A stretch of DNA of 49,126 bases from Fidelibacterota bacterium (GTDB taxonomy: Bacteria; Fidelibacterota; UBA2242). Every line of letters starts with the position of its first letter. The first letter of the stretch is position 1. A program made the position numbers and the translations under genes. This document shows positions 11,385 to 13,588 of the stretch, one piece after another. The stretch lies in the NCBI GenBank assembly GCA_011046365.1, contig DSAS01000119.1:1-49126 (forward strand), in the 5' to 3' direction. The notes under the pieces are model-generated. The model was not told the origin of the DNA. It made no database searches and saw only the letters and a program-made list of their open reading frames with translations.

Positions 11385-13319
11385 TTAAACATCCAGGTTT
11401 CTGACATATTTTGCATTCTTTTGAATGAAGTTACGGCGCGGTTCCACATCTCCGCCCATTAATATGGAAAACGTCCGATCGGCTTGAGAGGCATCCTCAA
11501 TCGTGATTTTTATCAGTGTCCGCGTTTCGGGATTCATTGTTGTGGACCAGAGTTGCTCAGGATTCATTTCACCCAGCCCCTTATAGCGCTGCACATCAAT
11601 TTTGGAATTGCTTTCCTTCTTCAATCTTTTCATCAGAATATCACGCTCGTCTTCATCATAAGCGTAGAACTCTTTACGACCCGATGATACTTTATACAGC
11701 GGCGGCTGAGCGATGTAAACACGCCCTTCTTCGACCAGCTGCGGCAAATAGCGGTATAGAAATGTCAACAGCAGGGTTCGAATATGTGCTCCGTCTATAT
11801 CGGCATCGGTCATAATAATGATTTTATTGTAACGCAATTTGTCAATATTAAATTCATCTTCGCCGAACCCGGTTCCTACCGCCGTAATAATCGTCCCGAT
11901 CTCGTTATTGTTCAAAACCTTATCAATGCGGGCTTTTTCGACATTGATAATTTTTCCACGGATCGGAAGAATCGCCTGGTACTTACGGTCACGACCCTGT
12001 TTGGCGCTACCGCCAGCCGAATCACCCTCGACGATATACAGCTCACAGAGACTGGGGTCTTTGGTGGAGCAGTCTGCCAATTTGCCGGGCAAATTACCAA
12101 TCTCCAGAGCACTTTTGCGGCGGGTGAGTTCCCGGGCTTTTTTGGCTGCTTCCCGTGAACGAGCGGCATTCAGGCTTTTCTCTACGATTCGTTTTGCCTC
12201 TGCGGGGTGCTGTTCCAGATATTCAGAAAGCCCCTCCGATACAACTGAGTCAACGATTCCCTTTACTTCAGAATTACCGAGTTTTGTCTTGGTTTGCCCT
12301 TCGAACTGCGGTTCAGCAACCTTAATACTTAAAATTGCCGTTAAGCCCTCTCGCACGTCTTCACCCGAAAGAGTAAAGGTGTCTTTTTTGAACAGTCCGT
12401 TTCGCTGGGCGTAATTGTTCAACGTCCTCGTTAAAGCCGTTTTGAAACCCACCAGATGGGAGCCACCCTCGACTGTATTTATATTATTGACAAAAGTAAA
12501 AATGTTCTCAGAGTAAGAGCTATTATACTGCAGCGCCAAATCCACCGGGACATTATCCAATTCTTTTTCTATAGTAATCGGTTTTCCGATAATGGAGGGT
12601 CTGGTTTCGTCAAGATATTTGACAAACTCCGCTAATCCGCCTTTATAGAGAAAGCGCTGTTCATTTCCATCCCGTTCGTCTTTTAAAACCATCTCGAGAT
12701 TTTTATTCAGGAAAGCCAACTCCCGGACACGGTGCTCCAGAATCTCATATTCCCATTGAATCTTTTTAAAAATCTCCTCATCTGGTAAAAAACGGGTATA
12801 AGTTCCTCTTTTTCTGGTTTTTCCGATCTCTGACAGCTTGCCGGTCGGTACACCGCGCTGGTAAGACTGGGTGAATATTTTTCCATCCCGATAAACCTCG
12901 ACCGTTATTTCAGAAGACAGGGCGTTGACCACTGAGACACCAACACCATGCAACCCGCCGGAAACCTTATAAGTACCTTTATCAAACTTGCCACCGGCGT
13001 GCAGAACGGTCATTACAACCTCAAGAGCCGGCTTCTTTTCTGCTTTGTGAATATCAACCGGGATGCCTCTGCCGTTATCCAGAACACTGACAAAATTATT
13101 CTTGTGAATCGTGACAATAATCTTATTGCAATATCCCGCCAGAGCCTCATCAATGGAATTGTCAATCACCTCAAAGACCAGATGATGAAGACCTCTCTTT
13201 CCGGTATCCCCGATGTACATCGCCGGTCTTTTACGAACGGCTTCCAGTCCTTTTAGTACAGTAATTTTTTCAGCACTGTATTCTGCTGATTCCGCAAATT
13301 TTATTTTCCCTACCGTAAT
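11385..13319 (-). CDS. gyrB: DNA gyrase subunit B, probable non-canonical ATT start
   Basis: ORF track starts at internal ATG 13220 (MYIGDTG...), but conserved frame continues upstream: (ATT)[42 protein letters not shown]; in-frame stop TAA at 13331-13329; AAGGAG 5 nt before ATT. Confidence 0.9.
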
Positions 13320-13588
13320 ACTATCTCCTTAATTTTCACACCCCGTAATTTACTATTTATTTTATCTAAAAGCTCATTTTTGTGAAAGATTAATTCGTTT
13401 CTCCACGTCGGTGAATCCACCGACACATATAGCTTTCCATACTGGACTTTTTCTGCTCTGGTGTGATGAGCAATTGTATCACCAACAATCTCATCCCATA
13501 AGGCGACAGCTTCCCACTGCCTGACCGGGGTGGCGATATTCAGCTTTTCCAGCATTTTATCAATAGCTTTTCCGATCTGTATCGTCAT
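13310..13588 (-). CDS. DciA-like/DUF721 protein
   Basis: ORF 92 aa; '[48 protein letters not shown]'; between recF and gyrB as is common. Confidence 0.85.

Follow-up and report, generated by a model that had tools for sequence, protein, structure and literature searches.

A conserved absence of a canonical gyrB start codon and probable initiation at GUA or AUA over the dciA stop in a family of Neomarinimicrobiota

In an uncultured family of marine Neomarinimicrobiota, the gene for DNA gyrase subunit B, gyrB, has no canonical start codon, and its translation probably begins at GUA (AUA in two genera), a codon that shares bases with the stop of dciA, the gene before it. At the level of the sequence, the lack of a canonical start is certain, and it is conserved; the choice of GUA/AUA is drawn from a comparison of relatives. 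The locus was found in a window of 49,126 nucleotides, the whole stretch of DNA analyzed (contig DSAS01000119.1), which comes from a metagenome-assembled genome of 2.68 Mb and 89% completeness. Named relatives of this genome are Candidatus Neomarinimicrobiota. Genes on the minus strand are arranged in the order dnaN, recF, dciA, gyrB, gyrA (Table 1).

Table 1. Features of the gyrB locus in the window.
Feature	Positions	Strand	Remarks
gyrA	8862..11381	-	Pfam DNA_topoisoIV, DNA_gyraseA_C
gyrB	11385..13313	-	642 codons counted from GTA; Pfam DNA_gyraseB, Toprim, DNA_gyraseB_C, HATPase_c
dciA stop TAG	13312-13310	-	4-nt overlap with the gyrB start, GTAG
GTA, most likely gyrB start codon	13311..13313	-	TA shared with the dciA stop TAG; homologous to GTG of five relatives
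ACG, rival gyrB start codon	13314..13316	-	comparison of codons among relatives
ATT, gyrB start in the initial annotation	13317..13319	-	codon varies among relatives
Shine-Dalgarno AAGGAG	13325..13330	-	11 nt 5' of GTA
dciA (DUF721), replicative helicase loader	13310..13588	-	Pfam PF05258 DciA, E 2.9e-19
recF	13588..14697	-	Pfam SMC_N/AAA; stop overlaps the dciA start (TAATG)

The overlap of recF and dciA (13586-13590) makes recF-dciA-gyrB a chain of start-stop overlaps. The ATG of gyrA lies 3 nt past the gyrB stop (11381-11387) without a clear Shine-Dalgarno sequence of its own, and translation of gyrA is probably coupled to that of gyrB. With the recF/dciA overlap at one end and gyrA immediately behind gyrB at the other, the segment appears to be coupled in translation throughout.

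In the frame of gyrB, an in-frame TAA (13331-13329) is followed by GGA GAT AGT ATT ACG GTA GGG AAA ATA AAA TTT GCG. Neither the sequence nor its translation contained ATG, GTG or TTG between this stop and the conserved N-terminus of GyrB. The first ATG of the frame (13220) is located within RKRPAMYIG; a start there would remove the conserved N-terminus (19 residues), which is encoded in frame upstream. These features had been described correctly in the initial annotation, as had the position of ATT, 5 nt past AAGGAG. Sixteen genomes were placed in the family, and 12 of them had an intact gyrB start region that was clearly the family's own. A canonical start was missing from 11 of these 12 loci, the sole exception being genome G008 with GTG, and it was likewise missing from G017, which belongs to another family of the same order. 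Such recurrence makes the absence neither chance nor a base error; the latter, proposed earlier as the main alternative to an ATT start, is excluded by the independent genomes that share the absence. Wherever the motif was readable in the remaining gyrB loci surveyed, within the phylum or outside it, ATG, GTG or TTG was present. A motif search of 245 genomes of the phylum returned exactly the twelve gyrB junctions and four unrelated sites with no gyrB motif nearby. A gyrB with ATG was observed in G001, a genome of the same genus (locus L044, contig C311); this gene is much more divergent (65% identity) and possibly represents a misbinned contig or a gene replacement.

The junction between dciA and gyrB was aligned for the 17 relatives that possess it, 12 without a canonical start and 5 with GTG. 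The sequence GGAGAT was invariant in all 17. The codon homologous to ATT reads ATT, GTT, CTT, ACT, GCT or TTT; neither ATT nor its relatives ATA and ATC are conserved there, and the codon varies freely even where GTG lies 6 nt downstream. The initial annotation stands as regards a missing canonical start behind a conserved Shine-Dalgarno sequence, and finds no support as regards ATT. The codon 6 nt past ATT behaves differently. It is GTG in G008, G018, G020, G021 and G022, and in the twelve genomes without a canonical start it is GTA (nine) or ATA (three), never another NTA codon. In all 17 relatives it overlaps the dciA stop, as GTGA in the five and as GTAG, GTAA or ATAG in the twelve. The ancestral junction was probably the common 4-nt overlap GTGA, in which GTG is unavoidably lost when the dciA stop TGA turns into TAA or TAG. 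With TAG or TAA as the stop, the start position is occupied by GTA or ATA, and a canonical start did not arise in its stead. In two genomes of the family with a TAA stop, the next codon is for Ser (AGT and AGC, synonymous), as it is after the GTG starts, which suggests that translation runs from at least this point. The distance of GTA from the Shine-Dalgarno sequence, 11 nt, exceeds the 5-8 nt usual in the genome and speaks against GTA as the start, although the GTG orthologs also have 11 nt. The restriction of the first base of this codon to G or A is weak as evidence for a start because the relatives are not independent.

The main rival to GUA/AUA is the ACG codon directly before it, an unlikely start. 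All 12 genomes that lack GTG have ACG, and in all 5 genomes with GTG its place is taken by AAG or CAA. Its distance from the Shine-Dalgarno sequence, 8 nt, falls within the usual range of the genome, and its A is kept though TTA and CTA together make up only 14-27% of Leu codons. The same bases, however, encode the last Leu-Arg of dciA, and with CGN at 86-89% of Arg codons the conservation of ACG can be a by-product; its A persists in the GTG genomes, too, wherever the Leu codon is present. Moreover, the mispaired base of ACG is the middle one, the residue at its position has no homology to any known start, and the Ser kept after GTA in two genomes speaks against initiation at ACG.

It is quite unlikely that ribosomes terminating on dciA pass over GUA and reinitiate a few bases downstream, at the ATA, ATT or ATC of codon -23 (13304-13302). 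All 11 family genomes that lack a canonical start have AUH here, a class of codon that serves better as a weak start than GUA does, and initiation at -23 would keep the arm residue Tyr. Against this, codon -23 lies 20 nt from the Shine-Dalgarno sequence, and G017 has CAA there, which is not near-cognate. Ile at -23 is also conserved in G008, which starts at GTG, so protein conservation explains the codon. Codon -25, which follows GTA/ATA, differs mostly synonymously, as if it were translated.

AUU itself is a very improbable start for gyrB. It is a known weak start (infC, pcnB), its 5-nt spacing from AAGGAG is favorable to it, and ATT is present in 4 of the 11 family genomes without a canonical start as well as in G017. 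The homologous codon (-28) in the other seven of these family genomes is nevertheless GTT, ACT, GCT or CTT, and ATT is also found in G018, where GTG comes after it. It is extremely unlikely that ribosomes shift frame in the overlap and so make GyrB fused to DciA: the dciA frame does continue for 19 nt beyond the point where a stop last closes the gyrB frame, and this stretch includes a Shine-Dalgarno-like sequence, but a slippery sequence is absent (tRNAs paired to TTA CGG are unable to re-pair in the frame of gyrB), and five relatives carry GTG at the site. A sequencing error, a misassembly or a dead gene, conceivable for an incomplete metagenome assembly, has a negligible probability, since twelve independent genomes agree, the gyrB frame is free of internal stops in each of them, and no second GyrB N-terminal region was matched in the 89% complete window genome.

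Several further explanations were considered and discarded. The initiator tRNA is not altered: the 14 genomes with a match to its pattern all have the normal anticodon CAT. Reassignment or avoidance of TGA did not force the change, as TGA accounts for approximately 31% of stops in both genomes surveyed. Editing of the mRNA from A to I in the UACG motif would convert ACG to GCG, which is no start. C-to-U editing would give AUG, and we know of no editing of this kind in bacteria. RNA structure at the gyrB start was unremarkable (z -0.79). Just downstream of the start, none of 53 Val/Leu codons was GTG or TTG; this depletion was not counted as evidence since orthologs with canonical starts have low values too.

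Start codons were surveyed genome-wide by comparing 843 kb of the window genome with 630 kb of G007, a genome of a second genus, which gave 222 non-overlapping ortholog pairs. Among these pairs, gyrB was the only clear case of a conserved N-terminus without a canonical start in both genomes, and the choice of starts is thus not generally relaxed in the lineage. A pair of 573-aa oxidase-like proteins, presumably NadB, was flagged as well and was rejected, as it has the appearance of a normal long overlap in which an ATG lies internally.

In the family genomes parsed, infC, the gene of IF3, begins at a conserved ATA behind a Shine-Dalgarno sequence, with no canonical start. The ATA was seen to be preceded by ATC, ATT, GTC or CCC (loci L133, at about 1470-1500 in contig C77 of the window genome, L252, L254, L256-L264 and L268). 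In G016, a member of another family, infC seems to have ATT. ATA belongs to the class of starts by which IF3 controls itself elsewhere; infC of E. coli starts with AUU, and that of Staphylococcus aureus with AUA (PMC13009471). By this analogy, self-control of IF3 through a weak infC start appears to exist in the family; for a possible repression of gyrB by IF3, the infC start is circumstantial.

In the GyrB tree, G017 grouped with another family (98/94), and G008, whose gyrB was only 39% complete in this tree, was placed inside the family beside a genome with ATA (91/90). Two histories fit this placement: at least two losses of GTG with one regain, or several losses. A single substitution within codons -25 to -16 would give each of the twelve genomes a canonical start, the one in G017 being at its GTA; there, a change of TAA to TGA would restore GTG and still leave dciA with a stop. 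None of the twelve regained a canonical start, which hints at selection for a weak start, and the persistence of weak initiation over six or more genera suggests that it is tolerated or favored. Drift combined with a TAG stop that forces an NTA codon may instead account for the weak start.

With GUA or AUA as the start of gyrB, two routes that do not exclude each other are likely: ribosomes held at the conserved AAGGAG would initiate weakly de novo at this codon, and ribosomes finishing dciA on the overlapping stop would reinitiate there. Ordinary fMet-tRNA (anticodon CAU) would mispair with GUA or AUA, and IF3 normally rejects such mispaired complexes, which would leave translation of gyrB low and sensitive to IF3. 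The output of gyrB would be tied to the translation of dciA, and the same would probably hold for the low and IF3-sensitive translation expected of gyrA behind it, if coupled. The expectation of low and IF3-sensitive expression comes from sigR, the recJ GUA mutant and other cases in the literature, which make a link between the gyrB start and IF3 plausible.

The sigR gene of Streptomyces has a GTC start, is repressed by IF3, and is translationally coupled (PMC5472188). Like gyrB with its proposed GTA, it lies in an operon and has a non-canonical GTN start, and infC has a weak start there too; it differs in that it encodes a sigma factor and its GTC was proven by experiment, whereas here the gene is the essential gyrB and the GTA/ATA, which overlaps the upstream stop, is known from sequence. 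In E. coli, translation of a recJ mutant with GUA was enhanced by IF3 mutations, and recJ seems to be coupled to an ORF upstream of it (Haggerty and Lovett, 1997, as cited in PMC2268962). A GUA start and the apparent coupling would be common to both genes; according to that citing account, however, the recJ codon was a laboratory change from GUG to GUA with a defect and is said to have no Shine-Dalgarno sequence, whereas the GTA of gyrB is natural, kept across genera and has one. Reinitiation is lowered by excess IF3 (PMC2268962). In S. aureus, conserved weak starts with an extended Shine-Dalgarno sequence gave in poor medium approximately 10% of the expression from AUG (PMC13009471). With infC and pcnB (AUU/AUA) gyrB would share a conserved near-cognate start behind a strong Shine-Dalgarno sequence, although the gene is another one and so is the codon (GTA/ATA). 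Overlaps of start and stop by 4 nt (ATGA, GTGA) with termination-reinitiation are known (PMC10666635), and the gyrB junction has the same geometry, being GTGA in relatives; the difference is that with TAG or TAA as the dciA stop the overlapping start is no longer canonical. Among the matches read in a search of open-access text for GUA or GTA as a start or initiation codon, a set that leaves aside one from Pseudomonas, those for bacteria were only citations of the laboratory recJ mutant.

We tentatively propose, as a possibility rather than as the expected outcome, that gyrB carries a natural GUA start, long kept on an essential gene, which ribosomes reach by terminating on the overlapping UAG or UAA although the codon would be inefficient alone, and that the supply of gyrase may in this way be tied to the translation of DciA and to IF3.

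Few natural starts outside ATG, GTG and TTG are known experimentally, and gyrB is an unexpected gene for a known kind of weak-start control. Automatic annotation will truncate the ATPase arm of GyrB in this family. The dciA-gyrB junction offers a simple reporter system for the limits to which termination-reinitiation can relax the choice of start codon and for the tuning of supercoiling by IF3. If gyrB does start at GUA/AUA, an essential conserved gene of these bacteria can do without a standard start codon, probably with the help of its neighbor's stop.
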